From Pseudomonadota bacterium (GTDB lineage Bacteria; Pseudomonadota; Alphaproteobacteria; Dongiales; Dongiaceae), in the NCBI GenBank assembly GCA_021792365.1, contig JAJYUT010000008.1, positions 124,001-188,000 on the forward strand: a DNA stretch of 64,000 nt. The letters are read 5' to 3'. Position numbers and translations under genes: made by a program. This document shows positions 23,099 to 46,819 of this stretch, piece after piece (position 1 is the stretch's first letter; the number at the start of each line of letters is the position of its first letter). The notes beneath the pieces were generated by a model. It saw nothing but the letters and a program-made list of their open reading frames with translations. It did no database searches and was not told where the DNA came from.

Positions 23099-23100
23099 GC

Positions 23101-24249
23101 TCAGCTTCTCGCGGCTGCGACCGCTGCCTCAATGGCGGCCGCGATCGATGGGCTGTTGGTCCAGCCGGCCGCGCTGAGAAGCTGCTGCGCTCTGGCAGCT
23201 CCGTTTCCGCGCAAGTGCAGGATCACCGGTTTCGCGCGTTGGCCGGTATTCGGACCAAGTGCGAGCAGCAGCGATGCAACGATCTCATCCAGACGATAGC
23301 CGCATGTGATGATGTTGATAAGTATGGACCTGATCGATGGATTGCGATCGAAAGCCTCGAGCGCTGCCGCAAGTCCCTGCTGGGCCTGGCCGCTCCCGAT
23401 GGCCTCGTCGATATCGACCAGCGCTGCCACCTTCGATCCCGTGCCGGCGATCCAGTCCATCAGGGCAACGTTGAGCCCTCCACCCAGGCCTATCAGGCCA
23501 ATAGCGCCGCCTTCTGTATTTTCTCGGAACTTCAGGCCGGCGAAAGTATTGGGCGCGCGAGGGGTGATATGTGGGTGGGGCTGCATCGCGGCGATGTCCG
23601 GCTGGCGATCAAGCGCGGCATCGTCGATCGCGACCCGGGCATCGAGCGCCAACAGCCGGCCCTCTGGGAGTTCGGCCAGCGGGTTGATCTCGATCATCGT
23701 TGCATCGTAGGCGCAGGACATGGCGAACAGTGCTCGGCCGATCCGCTCATATGCGGCCCAGTAGTCAGGCGCATAGTCTAACCGGGCGAAGCAATCCTGA
23801 AGCTGGCCGACAGCCGGTCCCTCGATCGGATCGACCGCGATTGAGACGATGTTGGCCGGATCGGCAGCTGTAATGTCCTCGACATCGACGCCCCCGCTGC
23901 GCCCGAACAACAATCGGATCTCTCCGTCCTCGATGACGATCCCGGCATACCTTTCGCGCGTGAATACCATCCGCTCTTCCACGAGCACCGACTCCACGGA
24001 ATGCCCGTTGATGCGGTTCCTGAGCAGCGCGGCAAGAGCCCTGCGCGCTTCTTCTGCATTTTCAGCGAAGGCGATGCCGCCGCCCTTTCCCCGCCCGCCA
24101 GTCGCGATCTGAGCCTTCAGAACCAGACGCGGCGGCAGGGAGAGGAGGGCTTGTGACAGAGAACTGTCGTCTCGCACGACCGCGCCAATAGGCGTCGGCA
24201 CGCCGTGTTTCCGGAAGAGTGTCTTTCCGTAGTGTTCAAGGAGAAGCAT
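23101..24249 (-). CDS. Succinate/malate-CoA ligase beta subunit-like (ATP-grasp, SucC family)
   Basis: LLLEHYGKTLFRKHGVPTPIGAVV, LVLKAQIATGGRGKGGGIAFAENAEEA, MIEINPLAELPEGRLLALDARVAIDD. The ORF extends to 24282; ATG 24249 preferred. Confidence 0.88.
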   Translation of the reverse strand: MLLLEHYGKTLFRKHGVPTPIGAVVRDDSSLSQALLSLPPRLVLKAQIATGGRGKGGGIAFAENAEEARRALAALLRNRINGHSVESVLVEERMVFTRERYAGIVIEDGEIRLLFGRSGGVDVEDITAADPANIVSIAVDPIEGPAVGQLQDCFARLDYAPDYWAAYERIGRALFAMSCAYDATMIEINPLAELPEGRLLALDARVAIDDAALDRQPDIAAMQPHPHITPRAPNTFAGLKFRENTEGGAIGLIGLGGGLNVALMDWIAGTGSKVAALVDIDEAIGSGQAQQGLAAALEAFDRNPSIRSILINIITCGYRLDEIVASLLLALGPNTGQRAKPVILHLRGNGAARAQQLLSAAGWTNSPSIAAAIEAAVAAARS

Positions 24250-24288
24250 GTTGCAGCCGTTCGGCGAGAGGTCTAGGCGCACACCATC

Positions 24289-25407
24289 TCATTCCGGTTC
24301 GGCGGTCAATGCTCCGACGTGTTCGATGGTCTCCACATACTCCGTCAGAAGATCCGCAAAGATCTGCCGCACTGTCGTCTCGCTTTTCATGTCGCCGACG
24401 ATCTGCCCGATCGCATAGGTCCAGTAGTCGAGCCGTCGCGCTCGTTCCGCTCTCCGCAGCGGCTCGCCGGCAAGGATGGACTGCAGCGGGAAAGTCAGCG
24501 GCTTCGGTGCGCCAGCTCCGTCCCAGGCATTCGTGTAGGCGCTCTTCAGGATACGGCAAGGCTTGCCGGTGAGAGCGCGGCTGACCACGGCGTCCTCGGA
24601 GTTTGCGCGGAACAACTGCTCCTTCATGTCCGCGTTGAGCTCGCTTTCCCGCGCGCCCAACCAGATCGATCCGCACCAGATGCCGGCGGCGCCGAGCGTC
24701 ATGGCGGCCGCAAATTGGCGGCCGCGACCGATGCCCCCTGCCGCCAGCACCGGCATTGGCGCCACCGCATCGACGATCTGCGGCCAGAGCACCAGTGAAG
24801 AAATCGGCCCGACATGGCCACCAGCCTCGTTGCCTTGCGCGATCAGGACATCCGTTCCGGCATCGCGCTGCTTGAGGGCATGCCTCACAGATCCAACGAG
24901 GGCGCCCACCTTGATGCCCCGGGCGTGAACAGCATCGATCACATGTTTTGGCGGAACGCCTAGGGCGCCGACCACGAACTTCACCGGATGTCGCAAGGAG
25001 ATCTCCAGCGCTTTCTCGCTCTCGCTGGGCGTCATGTTCATCTTGTGCGCGTGCTCTTTGACGAAAGCGGCAGCGTCGCCGGCGGGCAATGGCGGGATGT
25101 CTGCTTGGTCGACCAAGCGGGAAACGAACTGCCGATACTCGCGTGGGAGAACCTCATCCGGATCTGGTTCGCTGGGCAATTCCGCGAAGGTGCCCGGAAA
25201 GACCACGTCCACGCCATAGGGCTTGCCCTCGACATGGTCGTCGATCCATTTCAGCGACACTTCGAGCTCATCCGGCGTCAGGAAGGCTGCGCCAAGGATA
25301 CCCATGCCGCCGGCGCGCGATGCCTCCACAACGACGTCCCGGCAATGCGAGAAGGCGAAGATCGGCAGATCAATACCGAACATCTCAGTAACGGCGGTGC
25401 GCATCAT
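24289..25407 (-). CDS. Nitronate monooxygenase (2-nitropropane dioxygenase) family protein
   Basis: DVLIAQGNEAGGHVGPISSLVLWPQIVDAVAPMPVLAAGGIGRGRQFAAAMTLGAAGIWCGSIWL. Confidence 0.85.
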   Translation of the reverse strand: MMRTAVTEMFGIDLPIFAFSHCRDVVVEASRAGGMGILGAAFLTPDELEVSLKWIDDHVEGKPYGVDVVFPGTFAELPSEPDPDEVLPREYRQFVSRLVDQADIPPLPAGDAAAFVKEHAHKMNMTPSESEKALEISLRHPVKFVVGALGVPPKHVIDAVHARGIKVGALVGSVRHALKQRDAGTDVLIAQGNEAGGHVGPISSLVLWPQIVDAVAPMPVLAAGGIGRGRQFAAAMTLGAAGIWCGSIWLGARESELNADMKEQLFRANSEDAVVSRALTGKPCRILKSAYTNAWDGAGAPKPLTFPLQSILAGEPLRRAERARRLDYWTYAIGQIVGDMKSETTVRQIFADLLTEYVETIEHVGALTAEPE

Positions 25408-25463
25408 CTCGGTTCAGCTCCGTGGCAGAAGTTTGTTCTGGGGCCCCTTATCGCTCCCGCTGC

Positions 25464-25902
25464 TCAGGTTGCGGCCCGTGGCGACAGCAACGCCACCGCC
25501 GCGTCACGCAGCGGCTGGGGCAATGGGCAGCTTTCCCGCGCCGACAGATCAAAGTAGACCGACGTCATCTCACATGCGGCAGCAAGCTCGCCGGTTTCCA
25601 GCGCAAACATGCGATGGATGCTCACCACGGAACTGCGGCCGACTTTGGCGATACGGCTCAGTATTCGATATAGCGCCTCCCGCAACCAGCTCACCCCGGT
25701 ATTCGATTACATGGCGCACATCGGGCCAGCCATACCCGATGCCACGCGAGTCCGGCCTTCGGTAGCCGATCTCATGGACCAGGTGCCACATGGCCTGATC
25801 GAAGGCGGCGACGTAGTGCTGCACGTTCATGTGTCCCATGGCATCGCATTGAGCGGGATCGACAACACCTCGGCACGTCTCGAACTGGTTGCCCGCCGTC
25901 AT
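25464..25902 (-). CDS. 4-hydroxybenzoyl-CoA-type (hotdog) thioesterase, frameshifted at about 25671-25680
   Basis: N-part VDPAQCDAMGHMNVQHYVAAFDQAMWHLV...VIEYRGELVAGGA in frame 1; C-part YRILSRIAKVGRSSVVSIHRMFALETGELAAACEMTSVYFDLSARESCPLP in the adjacent frame. Confidence 0.7.
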
Positions 25903-25947
25903 CCGCGCCTCGCCGAAGCAGGACCTCCTGTAGGTCTCGGCATCACA

Positions 25948-25980
25948 TACCGATAAGTCATTTTTGTATACTCATCAGTC
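25948..25980. promoter_or_regulatory. Dual-element operator F (candidate TetR operator)
   Basis: Reverse complement: GACTGATGAGTA-TACAAAAAT-GACTTATCGGTA (12+9+12), between the divergent thioesterase and lyase genes. Confidence 0.65.
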
Positions 25981-26050
25981 TCCTTATGCTAGAAGGGCTC
26001 AGGTTTCAAGGCTATTTCACGCAACCGCTCAGATTTGTCGAGGAACGGGC

Positions 26051-26872
26051 ATGGAAGATAACGATAGGCGGTCCTGGCGCACCGCGATCAGCGATATCGA
26101 AAAATCCGAAGTCTACATACGGGGTTATGGTCTTGGCGACCTGATCGGCCGGATGTCCTTCTCCGCTGCCACCTTCCTGCTGATCCGCGGCCAGCTCCCC
26201 ACGCCTGGTGAAGCCCGGATGATGGACGCGATCCTTTGCTCGGTACTCGATTACGGGCTCAAGAAGCCGGGGACCGTTGCCGCGCGCTATTGCGTTTCCG
26301 CCAATCCGTCCATGACGGCTGGTTTGGCCACCGCCATCCTGTCGGTCGGCGAATACACGCTGGCGCCCGATGACGCCGGCCGTTTCATCATGGAGAGCTA
26401 TGCCGAAGCCAGCCGTGGCGGCACGCCGGGTGAGGCGGCGGCAGCGGCCGAGATCGACAAAGTGCGCGCCGCCAGGCGACGAGTACCCGGTTTCGGTCAT
26501 CCGAATTTCCGCTTCCTCGATCCGCGAGCCCAGAAGCTGAAGGAGATCGCGAAGGCTGAGGGCGTCTGGGGCCCGCTTTGCGACTGGTATGAAGCGCTGC
26601 ACCGCGCTTTCACAACGAAAACGGGAAAGCCGGAGATTGTGGTCAACGAGGTCGGCATGATGGCGGCGATTCTTGCGCAAATGGGGTTCACGCCGGCGGA
26701 GATGACCGGCGTCGCCATCCTCTCGACCATGCCCGGCGTCATCGCCCATGTCTCCGAAGAGATCCAGAGCAATGTGCGCATTCGCACCGTTCCGGATGAT
26801 GCGGTGGAGTACGAACGCAACCGCCGGGATCTCGCCGGCGACCTGAAGCAAAAGGGCTGGAGTTCCCGGTGA
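26051..26872 (+). CDS. Citrate synthase-superfamily protein, citryl-CoA lyase-like
   Basis: 273 aa; SEVYIRGYGLGDLIGRMSFSAATFLLIRGQLPTPGEARMMDAIL, VPGFGHPNFRFLDPRA, EIVVNEVGMMAAILAQMGF. Confidence 0.8.
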   Translation: MEDNDRRSWRTAISDIEKSEVYIRGYGLGDLIGRMSFSAATFLLIRGQLPTPGEARMMDAILCSVLDYGLKKPGTVAARYCVSANPSMTAGLATAILSVGEYTLAPDDAGRFIMESYAEASRGGTPGEAAAAAEIDKVRAARRRVPGFGHPNFRFLDPRAQKLKEIAKAEGVWGPLCDWYEALHRAFTTKTGKPEIVVNEVGMMAAILAQMGFTPAEMTGVAILSTMPGVIAHVSEEIQSNVRIRTVPDDAVEYERNRRDLAGDLKQKGWSSR

Positions 26873-26924
26873 AAGTGCCAATGCCACCTTGTCGGCCTTG
26901 ACCAAGACCCAAACGGAACGACTC

Positions 26925-27716
26925 ATGCATATCGTTGTCACCATAAAGCCGGTTATTGATCCGAATACGCCGTCCGTTCTTCTGAAGATCGGAAAGGACG
27001 GCGTCACCCTCGAACTTCCGGCCGGCATGAGCCAGATCATGAACGGCTATGACGCCAATGCAGTTGAAGCGGCGCTCGCGCTCAAGGACAAGCATGGCGG
27101 AACAGTCACGGTTCTCAGTGTCGGCGATGAAACGAGCAAGAATTGCCTTCGTCGCGCGATCGGCATGGGGGCTGACAGGGGCGTGCATATCGCGGGACCG
27201 ACGGGGCTCGCATGCGACAGCTCCTTGATCGCGAAACTGCTCGGAGCGGCGGTCGGCAAGCTGGGCTTCGTCGATCTCGTTCTGTGCGGCCGCCAAGCGT
27301 CAGACACGGATGCGGCACAGGTGCCGTTTCTGCTGGCAGGGGAACTGGGCCTTCCGGTGATTTCGCCGGTGAAAAACATTCAGGGCGTGGATGACGATTC
27401 GGCAGTTGTAGATCGCATCGGCGAGGGGTGCACGCAGCGGCTCCAGGTGAAGCTCCCGGCTTTGCTCGGGATTTCGAACGAGATCAACAAGCCCCGCCCG
27501 GCTCCATTGAAAGGCGTCATGCTGGCGAAGAAGGCGGAGATCCCGACTTGGACGCACAGTGATCTCGGCATTGAAGCGCCCCAGCCGGCCATGACCTTGC
27601 GCCGCCTCTATATTGAACCGCCGGTCGAAACGCGCGCCGAGTTGATCGCGGCGGAATCCGCGCGCGCGGCCGGACGTGCCCTGGCCGACCGCCTTCGGCA
27701 GGAAGGGAAGATCTGA
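26925..27716 (+). CDS. etfB: Electron transfer flavoprotein beta subunit
   Basis: MHIVVTIKPVIDPNTP...MNGYDANAVEAALALKDKHGGTVTVLSVGDE; LVLCGRQASDTDAAQVPFLLAGELGLP. Confidence 0.9.
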   Translation: MHIVVTIKPVIDPNTPSVLLKIGKDGVTLELPAGMSQIMNGYDANAVEAALALKDKHGGTVTVLSVGDETSKNCLRRAIGMGADRGVHIAGPTGLACDSSLIAKLLGAAVGKLGFVDLVLCGRQASDTDAAQVPFLLAGELGLPVISPVKNIQGVDDDSAVVDRIGEGCTQRLQVKLPALLGISNEINKPRPAPLKGVMLAKKAEIPTWTHSDLGIEAPQPAMTLRRLYIEPPVETRAELIAAESARAAGRALADRLRQEGKI

Positions 27717-28696
27717 TGCCCAAGATCCTCGTTATCGGCGCGATCTCCGAGGGAAACCTGACCGGCACATCGCTCGAAGCCGTCACAGCTACTCTCGAGC
27801 TTGCGGAGGCGATGGGCGCCGAGGTGTTTGGCGGACTGATCGGCGATGAATGCGCGCGCGCAGCGGCAAGATTTGCGGCAGCTGGGCTTTCTGAAGTGTT
27901 CGTCGCGGATCACGCGCGTCATGCGCCTTATGTTGCCGAGTTCCATGTTGCCGCGGCTCAGGCGATCGTCCGCCGTTGCCAGCCGGACGTGATTCTTGCT
28001 CCGAGTACCAGTGAGACATCGGAGTGGATGCCGATCTTGTCGGGCCGGCTCGACGCTGCAATGGCCAGCGCCTGCACCCGCGTTGGGTTTGAGGGCGATC
28101 ATCTGCTAGCGACGAGGCCAGTCTGCGGAGGAGCGGTTCAGGGCGAATACGTTTTGAAGGGCGGGTTGCGGATCGTGACGCTCGCGCCAGCAGCCTACGA
28201 AGCGGCCACACTCTCCGAACCGTGTCCGATCTCCCTGGTGGAGCTGCCAGATGTGCAAGCGCGGGTGACGGTAGTCGAACAGCTGAACGACCAGGTAGGC
28301 AGCGGACCCCCGCTGAGGACTGCCCGGACGGTGGTCTCAGGCGGGCTCGGAATCGGCAACCGCGAGAACTGGAGTCTGATCGAGGACGCCGCCGCTGCTC
28401 TCGGAGCGGCGGTCGGCGCCACGCGCGCGGTGGTCGAGCTTGGCTGGGTGCCGCACGCACAACAAGTCGGGTTCAGCGGTCAGAAGATCAGCCCCGAACT
28501 TTATCTCGCCGTCGGGATCTCGGGCGCGGTGCATCATATGGCGGGACTCGCCGGCGCCAAGACTATCGTCGCGATCAACAAGGATCCGGAAGCGAGCATT
28601 TTCCGTACCGCTCACTTTGGCGTGGTCGGCGATGCGAAGGAGGTCGTGCCCGCCTTCATCGCGCGGGTGAAGGAATTGCGGGCGCAGCAGGCTTGA
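27716..28696 (+). CDS. etfA: Electron transfer flavoprotein alpha subunit
   Basis: LTTAR-type RTARTVVSGGLGIGNRENWSLIEDAAAALGAAVGATRAVVELGWVPHAQQVGFSGQKISPELYLAVGISGAVHHMAGLAGAKTIVAINKDPEASIF. Confidence 0.92.
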   Translation: MPKILVIGAISEGNLTGTSLEAVTATLELAEAMGAEVFGGLIGDECARAAARFAAAGLSEVFVADHARHAPYVAEFHVAAAQAIVRRCQPDVILAPSTSETSEWMPILSGRLDAAMASACTRVGFEGDHLLATRPVCGGAVQGEYVLKGGLRIVTLAPAAYEAATLSEPCPISLVELPDVQARVTVVEQLNDQVGSGPPLRTARTVVSGGLGIGNRENWSLIEDAAAALGAAVGATRAVVELGWVPHAQQVGFSGQKISPELYLAVGISGAVHHMAGLAGAKTIVAINKDPEASIFRTAHFGVVGDAKEVVPAFIARVKELRAQQA

Positions 28697-28709
28697 AGCG
28701 GGGTTCGGC

Positions 28710-30257
28710 ATGGCAAGTGAGCAATTAGTTGTGGTCGGCGGTGGCGTTGCAGGATGTTCGGCCGCCCTCGAAGCGGCCAGGCTCGGGCTGAAGGTGACGC
28801 TGATCGATGAACATCCGCAGAGCCTCCAGGCGATGAGCCTTGATTCTCCTTATTTTTATGGCGCGCGGCTTGCCGCGATCCTGGACGATGCAAGCGTGAT
28901 CAGCGAGCGCGTGCTTGGGGCGAACGACCTGCTGCTGGAGTGTCTGGATGCGGGCGTGGAGATCCTGACCGGTGCCTGCTGCTGGGGCAACTTTGTGCCG
29001 GGACCCAACAACGTGCATCTCAAGAATCCGCAGCTGGGCGTCGCCGATGGCGAACGCTCCTGGTTGATCGACTACGACCGCCTCATCCTGGCGCCAGGAT
29101 CGCGCGATCTGGTCCTGTCCTTCCCCGGTTGGCACCTTCCCGGCGTGCTGGGAGCGAACGGAGCGTCGGCACTGCTGGCGCGATACCTAGCATTTTCGGG
29201 AAGCCGGATGGTGGTCCTCGGCTCCGGCAATATTGGATTGCGGACTGCGCGCCTGGCCATAGAGAAGGGAGTCCAGGTGGCAGCGGTGGTGGAAGTGGCG
29301 TCAGAGATCCGCGGTGACCCAGCGCTCGCCGCAGAGTTGTCGCGCGCCGGCGTGCCCTTCCTTCTCTCTCACACGGTCGAGCAGGTTGTTGGCGAGCAGG
29401 AGGTCCGTGGCATCCGGGTATTGCAAGTCGATTCATCGCTGCAGCCAGTGCTCTCGAGCGCGCAGGAGATCGCTTGCGATACGGTCTGCATGGCCGTCGG
29501 CGTTGTTCCGAACATCGAGTTGGCGTCCGTATCGGGCTGTCGCGTCGCATTCGATACAACGCGTGGTGGCTGGGTGCCGGAGGTCGACGAGGATTTCCGA
29601 ACCAGCATTCCCTCGATTTACGTCGTTGGCGATGCGGCGGGCACATCCGAGAAGATGCACGTCGATCCGCAGATCGCGGCCGAGCAGGGCAAGCACGCTG
29701 CCAATGCCGTTGCTGGCCGGCCGGGTCTTTCGAATGAAGTGAAAGAGAATCGAATTGGACCATCGGAGGAAAATGCGACGCTGCCGGCCGCACGGGCATG
29801 GCTCACCGCTCTGGTGGCAGCGGGTGGAATGGAAGTCGTGGTCTGCCAGTGCGAGGAAGTGACGCGGCGAGAATTGCTGGATGTCAGCCCGCCCAAGTAT
29901 CTCGGCGCCGGCAACATGCGGTCCTGTGGTGGACTAAAGGCGCTCTCGCTTGACGGGCAAAGCAGCCAGGATCTGATCAAACGATTGACGCGGGCAGGGA
30001 TGGGCCATTGCCAGGGCAAGCGCTGCCGCGATCAGACCATCATGCTGCTGGCCGAGGCGACCGGAACCGATCTCTCTCGAATGGTGCCTGGTTCCTATCG
30101 GGTGCCGGTCCGTCCGCTTCCGCTCACGGTCATGTGGGCAGGCGAGGAGACGGAAGAGACGAGGCGGACGTGGCCGATCTGGCTTCATCCGGTCGAAGAA
30201 GGAGCGCCGGGGTATGCCAGCGCACGAGCTGCGGAGTCCGATCGTGCGAAGCGCTGA
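28710..30257 (+). CDS. FAD-dependent oxidoreductase with BFD-like [2Fe-2S] region (opine oxidase A/HcnB-like)
   Basis: VVVGGGVAGCSAALEAARLGLKVTLIDE; second NAD/FAD motif VVLGSGNIGLRTARLAIEKG; C-terminal CQCEEVTRRELLD...GNMRSCGGLK...GHCQGKRCRDQ. Confidence 0.85.
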   Translation: MASEQLVVVGGGVAGCSAALEAARLGLKVTLIDEHPQSLQAMSLDSPYFYGARLAAILDDASVISERVLGANDLLLECLDAGVEILTGACCWGNFVPGPNNVHLKNPQLGVADGERSWLIDYDRLILAPGSRDLVLSFPGWHLPGVLGANGASALLARYLAFSGSRMVVLGSGNIGLRTARLAIEKGVQVAAVVEVASEIRGDPALAAELSRAGVPFLLSHTVEQVVGEQEVRGIRVLQVDSSLQPVLSSAQEIACDTVCMAVGVVPNIELASVSGCRVAFDTTRGGWVPEVDEDFRTSIPSIYVVGDAAGTSEKMHVDPQIAAEQGKHAANAVAGRPGLSNEVKENRIGPSEENATLPAARAWLTALVAAGGMEVVVCQCEEVTRRELLDVSPPKYLGAGNMRSCGGLKALSLDGQSSQDLIKRLTRAGMGHCQGKRCRDQTIMLLAEATGTDLSRMVPGSYRVPVRPLPLTVMWAGEETEETRRTWPIWLHPVEEGAPGYASARAAESDRAKR

Positions 30258-31404
30258 CGTCGTCATCATCGGGGCAGGTTTGACCGGGCTCTCTTCCGGA
30301 TACTGGCTCGCCAAGGCAGGTGCGAGGGTCGTCATTCTCGAGAAGGGCCGCGTCGCGTGGGAAGCGTCCGGACGCGCCACTGGGTTTCTGAGCCTGCGTG
30401 GCGAACAGCCGCTGGAGGCGCCGCTTGCCGCTGCAGCAGGCGAGCTTTGGACGACTCTGGACGAGGAACTCGGCTATCCGACCGAGTGGATGCCCGGTGG
30501 TCGGCTGTGGGTCGCCCTGGAAGAGGATCGATGGACGGAGCTGCAGGAGATCTGTCCGCAGTGGCAGGCAGCCGGCATTCCCGTGCAGCTCATCGACACC
30601 AAGTCGGCGCGGGAAATCGTGCCTTGCCTGTCCGAGCAAACATTGGGAGGGCTTCACACAACGCGCGGCGGGCATGCGAACCCGCAGCGGACGAGCCAGG
30701 CCTTTGCCTGGGCGTTTCGCGACCGAGGCGGTGAAATCCTGGAGAACACACCGGCGACTGGCATTCGCGTGGAGGGTGGACGAGTTGCCGCCGTCGAGAC
30801 TCCGACCGGCAGCATCGCCACGAGCTCGGTGGTTAATTGCGCCGGGCCACAGATAGGCCTCATCAGCGCCAAGGTTGGTGTATGCGTTCCGGTCGCGCCG
30901 GTGCGCCTGGAGGCAATGGTGACCGCGCCATTGCCGAAGCTCTTTGACGTGGCGATGGTTGGTCACGGCCTCTCGCTACGGCAGACTCGCCGCGGAAACA
31001 TCCATTTCAACGGCGGCCCGCACGAGTGGATCGATGTCGACCTGACATCCGAGCCGGCCAAGCCGAACACGCCGATTGTGCGGAACATGGCTCGTCGGCT
31101 GGCGGAACTGCTTCCCTCAATCGCCAACATCCAGGCGCTGCGGAGTTGGGCGGGTATCGTGGAAGTGACGCCGGATCAGAGCTGCATCATCGAACGTCTA
31201 TCGTCCCCCGAGGGAATGATCGTGGCCTCCGCTTCTGGTCATGGCTTCGGCTTGGCCCCCAGCATTGGCAAGGCGATCTGCGGCCTTGTCCTCGACGGCA
31301 GGAGCCCGATCCCGATTGACGGACTCGGTCTGGATCGATTCGCCGACCTTGATCCGGATTGGCGCGTGGCGCGCAGATGGGGAGCCGGTGCATACAACAC
31401 ATGA
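30214..31404 (+). CDS. DAO-family FAD-dependent oxidoreductase (opine oxidase B/HcnC/sarcosine oxidase-like)
   Basis: DVVIIGAGLTGLSSGYWLAKAGARVVILEKGRVAWEASGRATGFLS; C-terminal SASGHGFGLAPSIGKAICGLVLDG. Confidence 0.85.
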   Translation: MPAHELRSPIVRSADVVIIGAGLTGLSSGYWLAKAGARVVILEKGRVAWEASGRATGFLSLRGEQPLEAPLAAAAGELWTTLDEELGYPTEWMPGGRLWVALEEDRWTELQEICPQWQAAGIPVQLIDTKSAREIVPCLSEQTLGGLHTTRGGHANPQRTSQAFAWAFRDRGGEILENTPATGIRVEGGRVAAVETPTGSIATSSVVNCAGPQIGLISAKVGVCVPVAPVRLEAMVTAPLPKLFDVAMVGHGLSLRQTRRGNIHFNGGPHEWIDVDLTSEPAKPNTPIVRNMARRLAELLPSIANIQALRSWAGIVEVTPDQSCIIERLSSPEGMIVASASGHGFGLAPSIGKAICGLVLDGRSPIPIDGLGLDRFADLDPDWRVARRWGAGAYNT

Positions 31405-31439
31405 ATATCTTGCGATTCTGTCCGTTCCGTTCGGCGCAA

Positions 31440-31472
31440 CAGAACCGAGTCGAATAAGTTGACTTGCTGGTA
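31440..31472. promoter_or_regulatory. Dual-element operator G (weak left element) upstream of the tetR gene
   Basis: CAGAACCGAGTC-GAATAAGTT-GACTTGCTGGTA; the right element fits GACYN4GGTM fully, the left only partly. Confidence 0.4.
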
Positions 31473-32134
31473 TGAGTGCGGCAAATAGCTCTATGCCCAA
31501 GCGAGAACCAGCGGAGACCACATTGAAGCTCTCTCCCCGTGCCGAGCTGAAAGCCAAGAAGCAAGCATATGTGCAAGATGAGATCGTGGCGGCCGCGGCG
31601 AAGCTGTTCGCGGAGCGGGGCTATCGGGCCGTCACCATCGACGACATCGGATCAAGCCTCGATTACACGAAATCGGTCGTCTATTACTATTTCAACAGCA
31701 AGAACGAGATCCTGTGGCAGATCTTCCAGCGCATCTACGACAGCTATTTCGAGAGTATTCAGGAGATCCGCGCCCGCAATCTCCCGCCGGCAGAAGCGAT
31801 GAGGATGATCATTCGCAAGCATGCGCTCAATGTCATGGAGCGTCGCGAGTGGACAGCGATCTATTTCCGCGAGGAAAGCGAGCTGAACGACCAGCAGCGG
31901 CGTGAGATCGCCAAGAAGAAGCGCCAATATGACGCGATGATCGAGGAGGTCTACGAGGCGGGCATGGAAGCCGGCGTCTTCAGGCGGATGCCGAAGCACA
32001 TCGCAGTCAGCGGCCTACTCGGAATGTGCAACTGGCTCTATGTCTGGTACAAGGAGCAGGGTGCCTTTTCGGCCGAGGAGATTGCCGATTACTGCGTCAA
32101 TCTGCTCGCAAACGGGTACCTGACCAAGGGTTAG
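31472..32134 (+). CDS. TetR/AcrR family transcriptional regulator
   Basis: IVAAAAKLFAERGYRAVTIDDIGSSLDYTKSVVYYYFNSKNEILWQIFQRIYD. Operator G overlaps the ATG at 31472, so the start may be 31493. Confidence 0.92.
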   Translation: MSAANSSMPKREPAETTLKLSPRAELKAKKQAYVQDEIVAAAAKLFAERGYRAVTIDDIGSSLDYTKSVVYYYFNSKNEILWQIFQRIYDSYFESIQEIRARNLPPAEAMRMIIRKHALNVMERREWTAIYFREESELNDQQRREIAKKKRQYDAMIEEVYEAGMEAGVFRRMPKHIAVSGLLGMCNWLYVWYKEQGAFSAEEIADYCVNLLANGYLTKG

Positions 32135-32250
32135 ATCGGTACGAGACGCCTCGCTCCCTGGACAGTTGCCTCGATTCTCGCCTTCTGACGCTCGCTTCCT
32201 GTGTGCGGCTGCGAAGCGAAAGGGTCGACCTTACTTCGTCACTCGGATTA

Positions 32251-32283
32251 GACTAATTGGTCGATTGATCTGACGCATCGGTA
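32251..32283. promoter_or_regulatory. Dual-element operator E upstream of Rieske gene 1
   Basis: GACTAATTGGTC-GATTGATCT-GACGCATCGGTA. Confidence 0.65.
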
Positions 32284-32359
32284 TGTTACATTGCCGGTAC
32301 AAATGGCGCGCGTAGGTCGCGGTGTGACGCGCTGTCAGATGAGGAGCGAAGGATTTGCG

Positions 32360-33547
32360 ATGAGCGCCGCAGGCTCCAGTTCTCCGGTACTGACGACGCG
32401 AGGCGCCATGCCGGCGTTGGCAATGCCCGAATGCCGTTCCGGGTATGCCACCATCCTGCCACGCGATTACTACACGTCTGCCGAGATATTCGAGATAGAG
32501 CTTGAGCGGGTCTTTGCTCAGCAATGGATTCTGTTGGGACACATCGCGCAGGTTCCCCACATTGGGGACTATTTCGTGCAGCAGTTCGCGCGCGAAAGCA
32601 TCCTGATCGTCCGCGAGTCGAATGACAAGATCAACGGCTTCTACAACGTGTGCCGGCACCGGGGACACCGTTTATGTGCTTCGGCGCACGGCCATGCGCG
32701 ACGCTTCGTGTGTCCCTATCACCATTGGTCTTACGGTACCGATGGAAGCCTCAAGACAGTGCCGGGCTGCTCCGATGGCGAGCACCTCGACTACACGGAC
32801 TGGGGCCTCAAGCCCGTGCGACTGGAGGTGTTCCACGGGTTCATCTTTGGATGGCTCAGTGCCGGCGATGCGCCCTCTCTGGCGCTGAAGTTCGCCACCG
32901 CTGCCGCCGAGTTCGAGAAGATGGAACTGGAGCGGCTCAAGGAGGTCCACCGCGAGACCTACGAGATCAACGCGAACTGGAAGACGCTGCTCGAGAACTA
33001 CCTGGAATGCTATCATTGCAGGGGCAGCCACCCGGAACTTTGCGTCTCGATGGATTTGGCCGCGATGTATGCCGGCACGGACAGCTGGCAGGATCCGTAC
33101 TTTGTCGGGGCGACCCCGCTGAAGCAGAGCATGAAGACAGCCTCCCTGGATGGAATGCTGGTCTCGCGTCCTCTCGGCGCCTACGCTGCCCTCTCGGAGG
33201 TTCCCAGTGGCGTGGGAGTGGGGATCGGGGTTGTGCCGACCTTGTCGCGGGTGATCGTTCACGTCGATCATTGTGTATCCCATGCGCTCCGGCCGATCGA
33301 TGTCGGGCGCGTCGGATGGGAGACCCGTTGGTACGTGAGCGAGGACGCGCAGGAAGGCCGAGACTACAATCTTGCCCGGCTTATCGCAGTCTGGGATGCG
33401 ACCAATAAGGAAGATATCGCGCTCTGCGAAGGCGCCTATCAGGGCGTCCTTTCGCGCAGCTTCACACCCGGCCCGCTGGACCCGAAGCGGGAGTCCGCAA
33501 TCACCGTGGCGCTGCGGACCTATCTCGCGATGATGAAATCTGCCTGA
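32360..33547 (+). CDS. Rieske [2Fe-2S] ring-hydroxylating-type oxygenase alpha subunit (GbcA/CntA-like)
   Basis: CRHRGHRLCASAHGHARRFVCPYHHWSYGTDGSL; mononuclear iron region NWKTLLENYLECYHCRGSHPEL. Confidence 0.9.
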   Translation: MSAAGSSSPVLTTRGAMPALAMPECRSGYATILPRDYYTSAEIFEIELERVFAQQWILLGHIAQVPHIGDYFVQQFARESILIVRESNDKINGFYNVCRHRGHRLCASAHGHARRFVCPYHHWSYGTDGSLKTVPGCSDGEHLDYTDWGLKPVRLEVFHGFIFGWLSAGDAPSLALKFATAAAEFEKMELERLKEVHRETYEINANWKTLLENYLECYHCRGSHPELCVSMDLAAMYAGTDSWQDPYFVGATPLKQSMKTASLDGMLVSRPLGAYAALSEVPSGVGVGIGVVPTLSRVIVHVDHCVSHALRPIDVGRVGWETRWYVSEDAQEGRDYNLARLIAVWDATNKEDIALCEGAYQGVLSRSFTPGPLDPKRESAITVALRTYLAMMKSA

Positions 33548-33664
33548 CCCCGTCGGGACGGCCCATCCCGCCAGCTCCAGCCTAGAGAGCGTCCAGCCGC
33601 GCACATCGCGGTAGGCCCGCAATTTCCGCTCTGTGGCGAGGCACGCCTTCGCTCGTCCGGGCGC

Positions 33665-33694
33665 TTGACAACTGGCTGACCGGGGTTATTTAAT
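33665..33694 (+). promoter_or_regulatory. Putative sigma70 promoter for the SBP gene
   Basis: TTGACA (33665-33670), 18-bp spacer, TTTAAT (33689-33694); operator D begins 2 bp downstream. Confidence 0.55.
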
Positions 33695-33695
33695 A

Positions 33696-33728
33696 GAACA
33701 ACAGGTCGTAAAAAAAGACCAGCGGGTC
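33696..33728. promoter_or_regulatory. Dual-element operator D upstream of the SBP_bac_5 gene
   Basis: GAACAACAGGTC-GTAAAAAAA-GACCAGCGGGTC. Confidence 0.65.
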
Positions 33729-33810
33729 AAATAAATCTGATAGGCGACCGACGTTGCAGGATTTCGCCCTGCCTGCGGCCGGAACCATGGGCGGATATGG
33801 GAGGTCAGAG

Positions 33811-35385
33811 ATGCGCTTCAATCCGACATACGCTTTGACGGCTTCGGGAAAGCTGTCTCGCCGCGATTTCATGCATCGCGCGCTGGCTGCCGGCATCTCC
33901 GTCGCTGCCGCGCAATCGATGTGGCACAAGGCCGCCCGCGCCGAGCAGAAGAAGGGCGGCCATATGCGTCTCGGGCTTGCCGGCGGCTCGACCACAGACT
34001 CCCTCGACCCGCGCACCTATACCGATACGTTCATGCTCATGATCGGTTATTCGGTTCGCGGCAACCTGACCGAGGTCGCCGAGGACGGCTCCATCCAGCC
34101 GGACGTCGCCGAAAGCTTCGAAGGTTCAGAAGGCGCGAAGAAATGGGTCTTCAGACTGCGCAAGGGCCTGCAGTTCAGCAACGGCAAGTCGGTCACCGTC
34201 GACGACGTGATCAAGTCCATCAACCTGCATGGAGGGGAAAAGTCGACCTCCGGCGCCAAGACGCTGCTGGCCAGCATCGCCGATATGAAAGCGGATGGTG
34301 ACCAGACGATTGTCTTCACGCTCACCGAGGGCAATGCGGACTTCCCCTACGTGCTCGCGGACTATCACATGAACATCATGCCGTTCGAGGGCGACTCGTA
34401 CGACGTGAACATCGGCGCGGGCCCGTTCGTGCTGAAGGACTTCGATCCCGGTGTCAGGGCTGTTCTCGAGCGCAATCCGAACAGCTACAAGACAGCGTTT
34501 CTGGACTCGGCGGAGATGATCGCGATGCCCGACGCGACCGCCCGGCAATCGGCGTTGCTTTCTGGCAGCATAGACATTCTCAACCGTCCGGATCTGAAGA
34601 CGGCAGAGCGGCTTGGCGCCGTCAGCGGCGTGCGCGTGGTCGACGTCGCGGGCCGGATGCACTACACCATGCCAAGCCACGCCGATGTCGCACCGTTCAA
34701 CAACCCCGATGTCCGGCTTGCGCTCAAATATGCGATCGATCGGGAGGCCATCCTTAAGAAGGTGCTCCTCGGCCACGGATCGGTCGGCAACGACTCCCCG
34801 ATCACCCCGTCCTATCGCTACTTCGCGGAGGACCTGAAGCCCAAGCCCCACGACCCGGAGAAGGCGCGCTTCCATCTGAAGAAGGCCGGCATGGAAGGTC
34901 TGACGGTTGAATTGAGTGCCGCCAATGCCGCGTTCGAAGGGGCGGTCGATGCCGCGGTCCTTTTCGCCGGTGCCTGTGCCGACGCCGGTATCACGGTCAA
35001 GGTTGTCCGGGAGCCGAATGATGGCTACTGGGACAGCGTCTGGCTGAAGAAGCCGTTCTGCCTGGCCTACTGGGGCGGGCGCCCGACCGAAGACGTGATG
35101 CTGACCATCGCGTACGCGACGGGCAATCCGTGGAATGAAAGCCACTGGAGCAATCAAAAGTTCGATACGCTCCTCGCGGCCGCGCGTGCGGAGCTCGACG
35201 ACGCCAAGCGACGCGGCATGTATGTTGAACTGCAACACATTCTCAGCGAGGATTGCTCCACCATCATCCCGGCGTTCGCCAACCACGTTCACGCCGTCAG
35301 CGATAAAGTTGTGCATGGGGAATCGCTCTCCGGCGTATGGGAACTTGACGGTGGCCGCTGTCTTGAGCGCTGGTCGATGGCATAA
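33811..35385 (+). CDS. ABC transporter substrate-binding protein, SBP_bac_5 (oligopeptide/opine type), Tat-like signal
   Basis: LSRRDFMHRALAAGISVAAAQSMWHKAARA; SLDPRTYTDTFMLMIGYSVRGNLTEVAEDGSIQPDVAESFE...WVFRLRKGLQFSNGKSVTVDDVIKSINLH. Confidence 0.9.
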   Translation: MRFNPTYALTASGKLSRRDFMHRALAAGISVAAAQSMWHKAARAEQKKGGHMRLGLAGGSTTDSLDPRTYTDTFMLMIGYSVRGNLTEVAEDGSIQPDVAESFEGSEGAKKWVFRLRKGLQFSNGKSVTVDDVIKSINLHGGEKSTSGAKTLLASIADMKADGDQTIVFTLTEGNADFPYVLADYHMNIMPFEGDSYDVNIGAGPFVLKDFDPGVRAVLERNPNSYKTAFLDSAEMIAMPDATARQSALLSGSIDILNRPDLKTAERLGAVSGVRVVDVAGRMHYTMPSHADVAPFNNPDVRLALKYAIDREAILKKVLLGHGSVGNDSPITPSYRYFAEDLKPKPHDPEKARFHLKKAGMEGLTVELSAANAAFEGAVDAAVLFAGACADAGITVKVVREPNDGYWDSVWLKKPFCLAYWGGRPTEDVMLTIAYATGNPWNESHWSNQKFDTLLAAARAELDDAKRRGMYVELQHILSEDCSTIIPAFANHVHAVSDKVVHGESLSGVWELDGGRCLERWSMA

Positions 35386-35468
35386 GTGGAAAGACCAGAG
35401 AGCGCCTTCGCATCGGAATCGTGTGGATCGCGAGTCCGGGCGCGGCGCAGGCGTCTGTGGAACAGGAA

Positions 35469-36695
35469 ATGTCGCAGCAATCGGTTGAGACCGGTATCGG
35501 AAAGCTGACGGAAATCTGGCAGGAGGGTCATTCGCTGCCGCGGGAGTTCTATCTCTCGCCGGAGATCTACGAGCGCGATATCGAGCGCATGCTGCTGCGG
35601 CATTGGATCTGCGCCGGCCATGAGAGCTCGATCCCTACCGCGGGCGACTACTTCCTGTTTGAGATGGATCGCGAATCCGTCATTGTCATGCGTGGGCACG
35701 ACGGGATCGTGCGCGCGCTGATGAACGTGTGCCGTCATCGCGGCTCGCGCATCTGCACACGGGAGTCGGGGCATGCCTCCTCGGGGGTGATTGCCTGCCC
35801 CTATCATGCCTGGGTGTACAGGACCGACGGCTCGCTCCACGGCGCCCGAATGATGCCGGCGGACTTTGACAAATCGGCTCATTCGCTGGCCCAGATCGAA
35901 TTGCGGATCGTGGCGGGCCTGATCTTCATCAACTTCTCGAAGGGTCCTCTCGGCCTGGATGCGGTCACGGAGACGATCAATTCCAGCCTGAAGGTCTATG
36001 GCTGGCACCGCGCAAGGGTCATCCATCAGGAGCGTTACCTGATCGATGCAAATTGGAAGCTATGCATCGAGAACCAGATGGAATGCTATCACTGCGCTCC
36101 GTCGCATCGGGATTACTCGCGGCTCCATTCCCAGGCGAAACCGGGCGTGGAGGAGTCCACGAACAGAATGCTGGCGCGGACGCGCGAGTTCGGCATCGAT
36201 ATTCCCATCCAGGACCATTGGGCGCTGCAGGCGCGGGCGGGGCAGGAAGCGGGCTATTGCCGCAGATATGCCATGTCTGGAACGGCCGTTACCGGAAGCG
36301 AGGACGGCGGACCGGTTGCCCCGCTCATGGGCGATTTTCCCGACTATGACGGCGGAACGACCTTCGTCTATGTCGGCCCACTCAGCTTCTTCATCGCGTA
36401 TACCGATTATGGTGCGATCTTCCGCTTTATCCCGAAGCGGCACGATCAGACGGAGCTCATTGTCACCTGGCTGGTCGACAGCAAGGCGCACGAAGGCGTG
36501 AATTTCGATCGCGGCAGGGTGACATGGCTATGGCGGATCACCAGCGAATCCGACAAGAAGATCATCGAGGACAATCAACTGGGTGTTTCGTCACGCTTCT
36601 ACCAGCCGGGGCCATATTCCTTCCCCATCGAGGCGAGCTCGCATCGGTTCGTCGAGTGGTACTTGCACGATGTGAATGAGCACGGCGAAGGATAG
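35469..36695 (+). CDS. Rieske [2Fe-2S] oxygenase alpha subunit, second copy (GbcA/CntA-like)
   Basis: CRHRGSRICTRESGHASSGVIACPYHAWVYRTDGSL; NWKLCIENQMECYHCAPSHRDYSRLHS. Confidence 0.9.
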   Translation: MSQQSVETGIGKLTEIWQEGHSLPREFYLSPEIYERDIERMLLRHWICAGHESSIPTAGDYFLFEMDRESVIVMRGHDGIVRALMNVCRHRGSRICTRESGHASSGVIACPYHAWVYRTDGSLHGARMMPADFDKSAHSLAQIELRIVAGLIFINFSKGPLGLDAVTETINSSLKVYGWHRARVIHQERYLIDANWKLCIENQMECYHCAPSHRDYSRLHSQAKPGVEESTNRMLARTREFGIDIPIQDHWALQARAGQEAGYCRRYAMSGTAVTGSEDGGPVAPLMGDFPDYDGGTTFVYVGPLSFFIAYTDYGAIFRFIPKRHDQTELIVTWLVDSKAHEGVNFDRGRVTWLWRITSESDKKIIEDNQLGVSSRFYQPGPYSFPIEASSHRFVEWYLHDVNEHGEG

Positions 36696-36738
36696 CCTGC
36701 CGCACATTGCATCCGTCCCGCATGTGACGCCGTGCCGT

Positions 36739-38361
36739 TCAGACTCTCCAGCCGAAGATGGCAAGCCGTGGACCGCTTCTCAAGTCTTCCAAGAGGATTT
36801 GCGCGGCATTGTGCCCGGGGACGCCCGTAACGCCGCCGCCGGGATGGGTGGAGGCGCCGCACTGATACAGGCCGGGAACCGGCGAACGGTAATCCGCGTA
36901 GCGCGCAACGGGTCTGCGGAAGAAGATCTGATCCAGGCTGAGCTCTCCATGATGCACGTGCCCGCCAGGCAGGTCGAACATGCGTTCCAGGTCCTGCGGC
37001 ACCAAGATCTGCTTATGGATGACGCTGTTGCCGAAGCCCGGCGCGTAACGGCTGATTTGGCGCATGACGGCGTCGTATAGCTCGTTCCGGGCAGAGTCGT
37101 CCCAGTCGCGGTCACGTAGGCGGTAGGGGACGTGGCCGCCGAACACACTGACGACATGCTTGCCGGGCGGTGCGACAGTGGAATCGAATGCGCTGGGAGT
37201 GAGAATCCACAAATACGGTCGAGGCGCCATGCGGCCGTGCCGCGCCGCCTCGAACGCCTCCTCTAGCTCCTCCAGATTCTCCGCGATCGTGATCGAACCA
37301 GGGTTGGAGGCATTGAGCCCACGCGCCTCATAGGCTGACCAGCGTGGCAGTTGACTCGTCGCGAGATTGATCTTGAAGCAGGACGAGTCCGTGCGGATGC
37401 GCTTCACTGCCGCCACGAAGCTGGCGGGCAGGTGTGCCTTGTCCACCAGGCGCAGGAAAGTGGTCTGCGCATTAGCGTTGGCAATCACCACCTTCGCGTC
37501 AATCCGCTCGCCGTTTGCGAGAGCCACACCTCGCGCGGCGCCGTTCTCGACGATAATGCGTGACACCTCGGCATCGGTCTTGATTGTCACGCCCGCTGCT
37601 TCGGCGGCCCTGCGGAGCGCCTGAGTGACCGCTCCCATGCCGCCCTTGACGAGGCCGCCTGGGCCGGCGGGGGTGTTGGGGTCGCGCAGCATTGGACGCG
37701 CCAGCACGTATGCGGAGCCAGGTGTCTTGGGGCTGATATTGCCTCCGCTGCCCGAGGCATAACAGCCCAGAACCGTGAGCATCCTTTCGCTCTCGAACCA
37801 GCGCCGGAGGAAATCGTAGGCGCTGAGGGTCAGTAGGTCCCAGATGTCATAGAATCGTGCGCCGAGGTCGCGGAAACGCCACGCCAAAGAGAGCGCCCGG
37901 CCGATATCCCGCAATCGGCCAGTCGTCGGATCGACCGGGATTTGGAACAGCAGGCGCCGCAGGTACGGCATCAGAGAGTCCATGTGCGCGACGAAACGCG
38001 GATAGGCCTCGGCGTCAGCGGCCGAGAACGATCGGATTTCCTCCACCATGCGCGGCGTGTCGGGCCAGAAAACAATGCTGCCGCCATCCGCGAACGGCTG
38101 GAACCCGGGCGGTGTCTCGAGGACCTCGATACCATGCTTCCTGAGATCGAGGTCCATCATGATCTTGGGCTGGAGCAGTGACATCCAGAACGCTGCAACC
38201 GATATGCGGTAGCCCGGCCAAACCTCCTCTGTGACAACCGGGCCGCCGACCACACTGCGCCGTTCCACTGCCGTCACTTTCAATCCGGCCTTCGCAAGAT
38301 AGGTTGCGCACACCATCCCGTTGTGGCCGGCCCCGATGATGACGGCATCCAAAGTGGGCAT
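36739..38361 (-). CDS. Phytoene desaturase/PYROXD2-like FAD-dependent oxidoreductase
   Basis: LDAVIIGAGHNGMVCATYLAKAGLKVTAVERRSVVGGPVVTEEVWPGYRISVAAFW; C-terminal GLYQCGASTHPGGGVTGVPGHNAAQ. Confidence 0.88.
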   Translation of the reverse strand: MPTLDAVIIGAGHNGMVCATYLAKAGLKVTAVERRSVVGGPVVTEEVWPGYRISVAAFWMSLLQPKIMMDLDLRKHGIEVLETPPGFQPFADGGSIVFWPDTPRMVEEIRSFSAADAEAYPRFVAHMDSLMPYLRRLLFQIPVDPTTGRLRDIGRALSLAWRFRDLGARFYDIWDLLTLSAYDFLRRWFESERMLTVLGCYASGSGGNISPKTPGSAYVLARPMLRDPNTPAGPGGLVKGGMGAVTQALRRAAEAAGVTIKTDAEVSRIIVENGAARGVALANGERIDAKVVIANANAQTTFLRLVDKAHLPASFVAAVKRIRTDSSCFKINLATSQLPRWSAYEARGLNASNPGSITIAENLEELEEAFEAARHGRMAPRPYLWILTPSAFDSTVAPPGKHVVSVFGGHVPYRLRDRDWDDSARNELYDAVMRQISRYAPGFGNSVIHKQILVPQDLERMFDLPGGHVHHGELSLDQIFFRRPVARYADYRSPVPGLYQCGASTHPGGGVTGVPGHNAAQILLEDLRSGPRLAIFGWRV

Positions 38362-38384
38362 TCGATATCCCTTGTCTCCCTGCG

Positions 38385-38783
38385 TTACGGCACCACAGCC
38401 AGCGCGTCGATCTCGACCTGCACCCGTGAATCATAGAGCGCGGCCACCCCGACCAGGGCGCTCGCCGGCGGTGTCGCTGCGTTGATGAAGCGACCCCGTA
38501 TCCTGCGCAGGATCGGGATCATCGACGGGTCGTAATCCGTGACGTAGATCGTGAAGCGAGCGACGGACCCGAAGCCAATACCGGCGGCGGTCAGCGTCCG
38601 CCCGACATTCTCGAAAGCCGCGCTCAGTTGCGCTTCAAAGTCGCCCGTGACGAGGTTGCCGGATGCGTCCGTAGGCACATGTCCCGACAGCACCATCAAT
38701 CGGCCGCCGGAAATGACCATCCCCTGTGAAACTCCAGGAAACGAAGCGCCGGGCGGATTGACGGGCTCAAGCAAAGTGCTCAT
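38385..38783 (-). CDS. RidA (YjgF/YER057c/UK114) family protein
   Basis: LMVLSGHVPTDASGNLVTGDFEAQLSAAFENVGRTLTAAGIGFGSVARFTIYVTDYDP...PPASALVGVAALYDSRVQVEIDALAVV. Confidence 0.9.
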   Translation of the reverse strand: MSTLLEPVNPPGASFPGVSQGMVISGGRLMVLSGHVPTDASGNLVTGDFEAQLSAAFENVGRTLTAAGIGFGSVARFTIYVTDYDPSMIPILRRIRGRFINAATPPASALVGVAALYDSRVQVEIDALAVVP

Positions 38784-38792
38784 CTAAATTTG

Positions 38793-38825
38793 TACCCAAC
38801 GGACAGAAAAACAGACTGATAGGTC
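38793..38825. promoter_or_regulatory. Dual-element operator C (ridA side of divergent region)
   Basis: TACCCAACGGAC-AGAAAAACA-GACTGATAGGTC. Confidence 0.7.
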
Positions 38826-38932
38826 AGTATCATTGAGGAAACGTCCCTGCAAGCGTCTTTTGCCGGTCCGGCAGCCGGACCTCGAGGGGCCCATGAAATG
38901 CAATTGCATCAGGTAGGGCGACCGTGCATACT

Positions 38933-38965
38933 GACCCATGGGTCGAAAAACACGACTGATGGGTA
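38933..38965. promoter_or_regulatory. Dual-element operator A (racemase side of divergent region)
   Basis: GACCCATGGGTC (perfect 12-bp palindrome)-GAAAAACAC-GACTGATGGGTA. Confidence 0.7.
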
Positions 38966-38987
38966 CAAGCGCCGAAGGAGGATGGCA

Positions 38988-39767
38988 ATGGGTCTCAAGA
39001 TCAACTTCATCAATCCATTCGGAACTCCGGTCTATAATGGCCTCATTACCGAGACCTTGATGCCCTATGCGCGACCGGATACCGAGGTCGTGGTGACCAA
39101 TACGCGTGATTGCCCCGAGAACATCGATTACTACTACAACAAGCACATCGTCGAGTTGGTCGTGTTCGAGGAAGTGATGCGCGCCGAACAGAACGGGTTC
39201 GATGCGGTGATCGTCGGCTGCTGCTATGACCCGGGAGTGCGGGTAGCTCGGGAGCTGGTCGACATTCCTGTGATTGGCCCACTCGAAGCGACCATGATGA
39301 TGGCGCCGTATTATGCACATGACTATGTGGTAGTTACCGATCACCACAAAGCGGTCCCCTACCTGCGGGACTTGGTGACGCTCTATGGCGGCGTGAGCTG
39401 CCGCGACGTGTCCTGCATCAATTGGTGGGTCACCGACATGATCCGCGATACCGAGGGCGTTGCGCGCGATGCCATGGCGAAGTGCCGGAAGGCCATGGAG
39501 GACAAGGGAGCGGAAGCGGTCATCCTCGGCTGCACGATCATTGCGGCCAGCATGGAGAAGTGGCTGATCGATAGCAAGGCACCGCGCGAGCACACGATCC
39601 TCAATACCAACACCTTCTCGCTGAAGATGGCGGAATCGCTCGCGGATCTGAAGAAGCAGGGCCTCTATAACATCAATCGAGGCGGCTATTATCAGAAGCC
39701 GCAGCAGCGCAACGCCGGGGAGTTCGCCGAGGTACGGGCCCGCTATGGCCGGCCTTCGGCATTCTGA
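38988..39767 (+). CDS. Aspartate/glutamate racemase superfamily protein (hydantoin racemase-like)
   Basis: FDAVIVGCCYDPGVRVARELVDIPVIGPLEATMMMA; GAEAVILGCTIIAASMEKWL; AGGAGG upstream. Confidence 0.85.
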   Translation: MGLKINFINPFGTPVYNGLITETLMPYARPDTEVVVTNTRDCPENIDYYYNKHIVELVVFEEVMRAEQNGFDAVIVGCCYDPGVRVARELVDIPVIGPLEATMMMAPYYAHDYVVVTDHHKAVPYLRDLVTLYGGVSCRDVSCINWWVTDMIRDTEGVARDAMAKCRKAMEDKGAEAVILGCTIIAASMEKWLIDSKAPREHTILNTNTFSLKMAESLADLKKQGLYNINRGGYYQKPQQRNAGEFAEVRARYGRPSAF

Positions 39768-39809
39768 ACTCCTGGATGCATCGGTAGCACAGGTCCGGAG
39801 TGAACGCAT

Positions 39810-40598
39810 ATGGGTACCCTGACGGGCAAGAACGCAGCCATCACGGGCGGTGAGACCGGCATTGGGCTCGCTATCACCGAAGCGCTTTGCGCCGCCGGCG
39901 CGCAGGTCCTGATCGGCGGAATCCTGGAGTCTCCCGGCCGAGAAGCAGTCAGGAATATCCGAGACAAGGGGGGTGCCGTCGACTTCATGAAGGTCGACGT
40001 GCGGGACGGTGCGGCCGTGGACGGGTTGGTGCAGTCGGCCATCGACCGGTTCGGATGCCTCGACATCATGGTGAACAATGCGGGCGTGTTCGATGGTTTC
40101 GCCAGCTGCATCGAGACGAGCGAGTCCCTCTGGGACAAGGTGATCGACATCAACCTCAAGGGCACCTTCTTCGGCTGCCAGGCAGCGTTGAAGCGCATGG
40201 TGCCCCAGGGTGGAGGACGCATCATCAACACAGCTTCGGTTGGCGGCCTGCGCGGCGCAGCCGACGGCGCTTCCTACACGGCTTCGAAGTTTGGCGTTAT
40301 CGGCCTCACGCGCCAGATCGCCTGCGTCTATGCTGAGAACGGCATCACGATCAACGCCATCTGTCCGGGCGTCATCCAGACCGACATCCGCGGCAACTCG
40401 ACCATCATTCTCGGCAGTGACGCACCCAAGATGGCTGGCGTTGGCTCCGATCCGGAGGCTTACAAGCGCCTGGTACCCGCACGCCGCAAAGGCCTTCCTT
40501 CAGAGGTCGCGGATCTGGCGGTATTTCTCGCCTCCGAGAACGCCGCTTACATCAACGGCCAGGCGATCGCCATCGACGGCGGCTGGACGGCGACATGA
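39810..40598 (+). CDS. Short-chain dehydrogenase/reductase
   Basis: AAITGGETGIGLAITEALCAAGAQVLIGG; NNAGVFDG; INTASVGGL...ASYTASKFGVIGLTR; IAIDGGWTAT. Confidence 0.92.
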   Translation: MGTLTGKNAAITGGETGIGLAITEALCAAGAQVLIGGILESPGREAVRNIRDKGGAVDFMKVDVRDGAAVDGLVQSAIDRFGCLDIMVNNAGVFDGFASCIETSESLWDKVIDINLKGTFFGCQAALKRMVPQGGGRIINTASVGGLRGAADGASYTASKFGVIGLTRQIACVYAENGITINAICPGVIQTDIRGNSTIILGSDAPKMAGVGSDPEAYKRLVPARRKGLPSEVADLAVFLASENAAYINGQAIAIDGGWTAT

Positions 40599-42639: not shown

Positions 42640-42674
42640 CCATATTGCGACACTGAACTGCACAAGGACATGTG

Positions 42675-43163: not shown

Positions 43164-43179
43164 TCGCCGGAGCAGCGCC

Positions 43180-45557: not shown

Positions 45558-45673
45558 GCGCAAGACCCTCTGTTCCTCCAGCAGACTTCAATGCCCATCG
45601 GAGGAAGCCCCGGAGTGCAGAAATGACGAGCATGACCATGACTTCGGATTGGACCACGGGGATTGCCGGGACG

Positions 45674-46774: not shown

Positions 46775-46819
46775 GCCTGCTCCAGCGCCGTCTCGCTGTG
46801 TCGGCGTCGCGTTTCCAGT

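Follow-up and report, generated by a model that had tools for sequence, protein, structure and literature searches.

The closest solved relatives, by sequence and fold, of the TetR-family protein described here are 3dcf, PfmR (3vpr), AibR (5k7h), DarR, and KstR2, and MbdR is a weaker match. In sequence, 3dcf, a Thermobifida protein of unknown function, matches better than PfmR. AibR of Myxococcus xanthus (5k7h/5k7z), solved with isovaleryl-CoA, is similar in fold (E 7e-10, TM 0.78) at ~27% identity, and its regulon differs from the one considered here; KstR2 senses a CoA ester. PfmR (TTHB023 of Thermus thermophilus) is the second-best match by sequence and one of the best by fold (E 2e-26, TM 0.82). 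PfmR binds CTGACCGATCGGTCAG, with two sites each in its own promoter and in that of TTHA0987, and ACAD, MaoC, reductase, and acyl-CoA ligase genes are among those of its operon (PMC7022988). MbdR of Azoarcus sp. CIB (4uds; profile match 7e-15) is a TetR repressor of a catabolic cluster that acts from operators at several promoters, including its own, and is released by a CoA ester of the pathway (PMC4424350); it differs in being more distant in sequence and in its operator, ATACN10GTAT. FadR of Sulfolobus acidocaldarius, likewise of the TetR family, represses a 30-kb gene cluster from few genomic sites, is released by acyl-CoA, and binds as one or two dimers depending on the operator (PMC6449355). 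It differs in being archaeal, and its two-dimer mode has been likened to that of QacR, with overlapping inverted repeats rather than adjacent sites 21 bp apart. DarR and QacR resemble the model proposed below in placing two dimers on each operator, whereas the palindromes of DarR overlap (PMC10636190) and the 12-bp cores found here are separated by 9 AT-rich bp.

The window (the whole 64-kb stretch of DNA that was analysed) holds a TetR-family gene whose half-site consensus, ATAGACCAATTGGTCTAT, shares the 12-bp core GACYNNNNRGTC with the CTGACCGATCGGTCAG of PfmR (PMC7022988). With an identity of ~28%, and with 3dcf the better sequence match, the protein does not count as an orthologue of PfmR. 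A fixed 21-bp pair at every target is a feature of this locus that does not appear in the available part of the PfmR description (PMC7022988), and the two gene sets differ (RidA, CrtO-like, citryl-CoA lyase, and Rieske genes here).

Predicted tandem operators in a catabolic island

Third-position GC falls from ~0.87 to ~0.73 across ~22.2-56.9 kb, an island that begins just after tRNA-Ser 21938-22031. Profile matches identify Rieske oxygenases, a citryl-CoA-lyase-like protein, ETF, FAD oxidoreductases, RidA, a CrtO-like flavoprotein, Asp/Glu racemase, SDR, ACAD, a deacetylase-like protein, MaoC, acyl-CoA ligase (43180-44673), CN-hydrolase, GMC oxidoreductases, and transporters; a succinyl-CoA-ligase-like pair lies at 22217-24282. 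Literature searches returned no description of a degradation pathway for this gene set; the PuuE-like deacetylase and the CN-hydrolase prompted consideration of an imide pathway (imidase plus half-amidase), on evidence short of decisive. A clean insertion at the tRNA was also considered and set aside: in one related genome (G009) left-flank homology ends at the tRNA and the right flank is on a different contig. A search of the window turned up no further tRNA fragment of at least 16 bp, and a second attachment site was likewise not found. Both Rieske oxygenases (32360-33547 and 35421-36695) are related to the glycine betaine monooxygenase GbcA, scoring far below the cut-off (236 and 272 bits versus 670), and both are absent from the otherwise matching cluster of G013, a genome of the same family as the host but of another genus.

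Seven candidate sites, located independently of the operators labelled A-G in a first-pass annotation of this DNA, comprise six tandem operators and a site at the tetR promoter (Table 1). The six follow one design: paired 12-bp near-palindromes, GACYNNNNRGTC/A, with starts 21 bp apart and an AT-rich 9-bp spacer. Among half-site pairs, 28 are spaced at 21 bp and 9 at 20 bp, with three or fewer at almost every other spacing; the exception, 8 pairs at 4 bp, is probably one site matched in shifted register. Literature searches returned no description of tandem 21-bp TetR operators.

Table 1 Predicted regulatory features of the window (operator scores are from the weight matrix)
Feature	Position	Strand	Score or basis
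Tandem operator, divergent: thioesterase-NMO-sucCD-like (-) / citryl-CoA lyase-ETF-FAD oxidoreductase (+)	25948..25980		27.8; same place occupied in G013
tetR promoter site (probably site G of the first-pass annotation)	31440..31472	+	good dimer site 31461-31472 GACTTGCTGGTA; degenerate partner 31440-31451 CAGAACCGAGTC
Shine-Dalgarno GGAG	31513..31516	+	sequence; 6 nt before TTG 31523
TetR-family repressor gene (putative)	31523..32134	+	203 aa, start TTG 31523; Pfam domains, orthologue alignment
Tandem operator before Rieske oxygenase 1 (start probably ATG 32360)	32251..32283	+	27.3
Tandem operator before solute-binding protein (SBP_bac_5) and Rieske oxygenase 2	33696..33728	+	34.6
Tandem operator before RidA / CrtO-like flavoprotein unit	38793..38825	-	35.4
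Tandem operator before Asp/Glu racemase, SDR, ACAD, deacetylase-like, MaoC, acyl-CoA ligase, CN-hydrolase, ADH unit	38933..38965	+	25.6
Tandem operator, divergent: GMC oxidoreductase (-) / branched-chain-type ABC transporter unit (+)	48629..48661		31.0; same place occupied in G013
Inferred regulon: all island transcription units except the right-end AraC gene	22217..55735		operator positions versus gene order; profile search

Scores come from a weight matrix trained only on sites from nine other loci, L011-L019 (Paraburkholderia, Ralstonia, Pseudomonas, Mesorhizobium, and two metagenome genomes), with the window sites left out. The background consisted of twenty 20-kb stretches of the host genome (399 kb) together with shuffles, which replaced control loci, some of which were probably AT-rich. 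The six window operators score 25.6-35.4, against a maximum of 9.3 in the 399 kb of host genome. A profile search of the whole host genome (5.43 Mb, 30 contigs) returned the six operators as its only matches at E<=1, the profile used here and for the 289 genomes below including the window sites, unlike the matrix. This specificity was reached only by the matrix and the profile: a loose two-box pattern (GACN5GGT twice) gave 868 and 836 genome-wide matches per strand, no better than a reversed-pattern control.

Together, the seven sites serve every transcription unit from 22217 to 55735, and the AraC-type gene at 55845-56852 lies without a site. The listed TTG start of the citryl-CoA-lyase-like gene lies within its operator, the likely start being ATG 26050 (25964-26050); comparable shifts probably apply to Rieske 1, to ATG 32360, and to the racemase, to ATG 38988. 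The 4HBT-type thioesterase directly behind the first operator (25464-25902, minus strand) is split over two frames; because 4HBT_2 matches occur in both, it is frameshifted or carries a sequencing error. In G013 the space at that place is too small to accommodate a counterpart.

Where the orthologue occurs in Paraburkholderia, Ralstonia, Pseudomonas, and Mesorhizobium, sites of identical build adjoin the same neighbouring genes. A shared set of core genes surrounds the orthologue, and the operator accompanies it in alpha-, beta-, and gamma-proteobacteria alike. None of the 41 sites called in the nine training loci falls inside a recognised gene. A Rhizobium NZLR1 plasmid locus outside the training set has sites scoring 34.4, 28.7, and 28.2. 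Profile matches in the G013, Paraburkholderia, Pseudomonas, and Mesorhizobium genomes all lie on the cluster-bearing contig, the same search found no operators in three relatives that lack the tetR gene, and elsewhere among 289 genomes of the class only single scattered matches were obtained. Sequence shows the gene and its start, and likewise the operators, which are confined to the cluster and accompany the orthologue in other genera. Related clusters on two Rhizobium plasmids (L046 and L047) additionally contain GABA transaminase, succinate-semialdehyde dehydrogenase, a DMSP-lyase-family protein, and an amidase, which may hint at the products of the pathway.

The tetR gene, its start, and its promoter

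The gene at 31472/31523-32134 (plus strand) matches the Pfam families TetR_N (2e-15) and TetR_C_24 (3e-31). The N-terminal helix-turn-helix domain (PF00440) scores 56.9 bits against a cut-off of 24, and the all-helical C-terminal ligand-binding domain (PF17932) 108.6 bits against 26.4; an AlphaFold2 model is helical, with a mean pLDDT of 92. As the first-pass annotation had claimed, profile matches identify 31523-32134 as the sole TetR gene among the main ORFs of the island. To call it the only regulator would be an overstatement, since an AraC/GlxA-type gene with DJ-1/PfpI and HTH_18 domains lies at the right end of the island (55845-56852, minus strand); its scores are below the cut-offs for FtrA (237 bits versus 425) and GbdR (142 versus 480). 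Several named identities were rejected for the TetR protein: the NCBIfam equivalogs for BetI, the choline repressor (36.7 bits, cut-off 201.3), and for Bacillus FadR, a fatty-acid regulator (61.6 bits, cut-off 200), and AcuR and similar equivalogs, all of which it matches below cut-off.

Comparison with orthologues places the start at TTG 31523. In G013, whose TetR protein is 85-87% identical, the frame is closed by a TAG after the operator, no usable ATG exists at the place of 31493, and the only start codon is a GTG behind AAGGAG that aligns with the TTG of the window. At the DNA level the two are highly similar across the operator, differ widely in the leader, and become highly similar once more at the codon of TTG 31523. 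Eleven orthologues align from this codon with one indel, of a single residue; for nine orthologues beyond the window and G013 the alignment begins at that residue too, with one of the nine carrying an additional residue. Since the orthologues and the G013 GTG align there, the protein is 203 aa long and both 31472 and 31493 fall in the leader. The alignment rules out ATG 31472. The start at 31493 proposed earlier is contradicted as well: G013 has a stop codon there, and ATG 31493 has no Shine-Dalgarno sequence. Of the further proposal that an operator abuts or overlaps ATG 31472, the overlap holds, by the site at 31461-31472, and the role of 31472 as the start does not; the site ends 51 bp before TTG 31523.

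Half-site 31461-31472 scores 12.8 with the matrix from other genera, tied eighth in the window, and every half-site ranking with or above it belongs to a tandem operator; scores of at least 12 occur only 4 times per 399 kb of host genome. Its left partner, 21 bp upstream, is degenerate (-8.4), so that as a tandem the site scores only 3-4. This degeneracy, together with a Rhizobium etli orthologue (42% identical) before whose gene no clear site was found, would fit a regulator that controls the island and not itself, with the 31461 site a remnant or a chance match. We regard this as unlikely, given the rank of the half-site and its recurrence elsewhere. In G013 the same arrangement recurs at the matching position (12.3, rank 5 in 62 kb), kept while the leader is not, and in Rhizobium NZLR1 tetR is preceded by a strong half-site (18.3). 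A full operator lies ~550 bp before tetR in Pseudomonas and Paraburkholderia. The interval in the Pseudomonas loci reads as the end of a thioesterase-like gene, and tetR is therefore probably in an operon behind that gene; autoregulation in these two genera would act through the upstream thioesterase-tetR operon rather than a tetR-adjacent site. Comparative sequence thus strongly supports the earlier suggestion that tetR is autoregulated, with a conserved palindromic site at its promoter, and this control is probably weaker than that of the targets.

Mode of action and inducer

Promoter-like elements adjoin the operators. At 15 of 90 operator edges, a -10-like hexamer with an acceptable -35 ends exactly at the edge, and 17 lie at gaps of 0-2 bp where shuffled flanks predict 2.0. 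In the window, TTGACA-18-TTTAAT ends at 33694, 2 bp before the operator at 33696, TTGCAT-17-CATACT abuts operator 38933, GATACT abuts operator 38793-38825 at 38825, and AATACT abuts operator 48629. The excess over shuffled flanks makes repression likely, since an operator so placed would cover the transcription start. The flank letters that resemble a -10 (TACT) are part of the matrix, and the signal could in part reflect protein contacts instead. Some TetR-family proteins activate, and the Rieske 1 and tetR promoters have their best -35-like hexamer inside the operator or at its edge, as might be expected of a local activator or of a protein whose sign switches with ligand; a -10-like hexamer ending 0-1 bp before four operators, which would then cover +1, makes such a role improbable for this protein. 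Least probable of all is that the tandem sites are bound by another regulator, either the AraC/GlxA-type protein (which resembles FtrA and GbdR, the latter a regulator of glycine-betaine genes, in an island with GbcA-like Rieske proteins) or one encoded elsewhere in the genome, with TetR incidental: neither the orthologous loci examined nor 62 kb of G013 yielded an AraC relative, tetR and the operators are found in company, and GACYNNNNRGTC is a TetR-type palindrome common to PfmR and SbtR.

We infer a homodimeric TetR-family repressor dedicated to the catabolic island. Two dimers would sit side by side, two helical turns apart, on each tandem operator, covering the transcription start of each catabolic and transport unit and keeping the island silent. 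The protein would be released when its C-terminal domain binds an intermediate of the pathway, most probably an acyl-CoA ester. At the tetR promoter, one good dimer site beside a degenerate one would give self-repression, probably weaker than at the targets. Taken as a whole, this dedicated tandem-operator repressor with self-repression and probable acyl-CoA release is an explanation that we hold with good, though incomplete, confidence. The first-pass view of TetR as the likely master of the island is strongly supported by the tandem operators at every unit between 22.2 and 55.7 kb, and the protein very probably turns off nearly every gene of the 34-kb island through paired 12-base sites.

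Family membership does not by itself decide the ligand, because DarR binds c-di-AMP (PMC10636190). The nearest relatives and the acyl-CoA genes of the core make a CoA ester the best guess for the inducer, and a somewhat favoured one. With PfmR, AibR, and KstR2 nearest, an acyl-CoA is more likely than a free quaternary amine. Both had been put forward as effectors; the CoA ester is plausible from the relatives, and the amine lacks support of its own, the BetI match lying far below its cut-off as given above.

Implications for the regulon

The class of regulator is already well known, and the case is ordinary in kind and well supported in substance. The analysis yields a defined operator, a corrected start codon, and a list of the genes in a catabolic regulon shared by several classes of proteobacteria. 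One repressor and one promoter should now suffice to identify the inducer, which would in turn reveal what the pathway degrades. Tentatively, this alpha-, beta-, and gamma-proteobacterial regulon may pair catabolic promoters carrying fixed-21-bp two-dimer operators with a single-dimer site at the regulator's own promoter, the number of sites setting a sharp pathway switch and a loose repressor feedback. The locus offers a clean case for testing one-dimer versus two-dimer operators as a division between feedback and target control.
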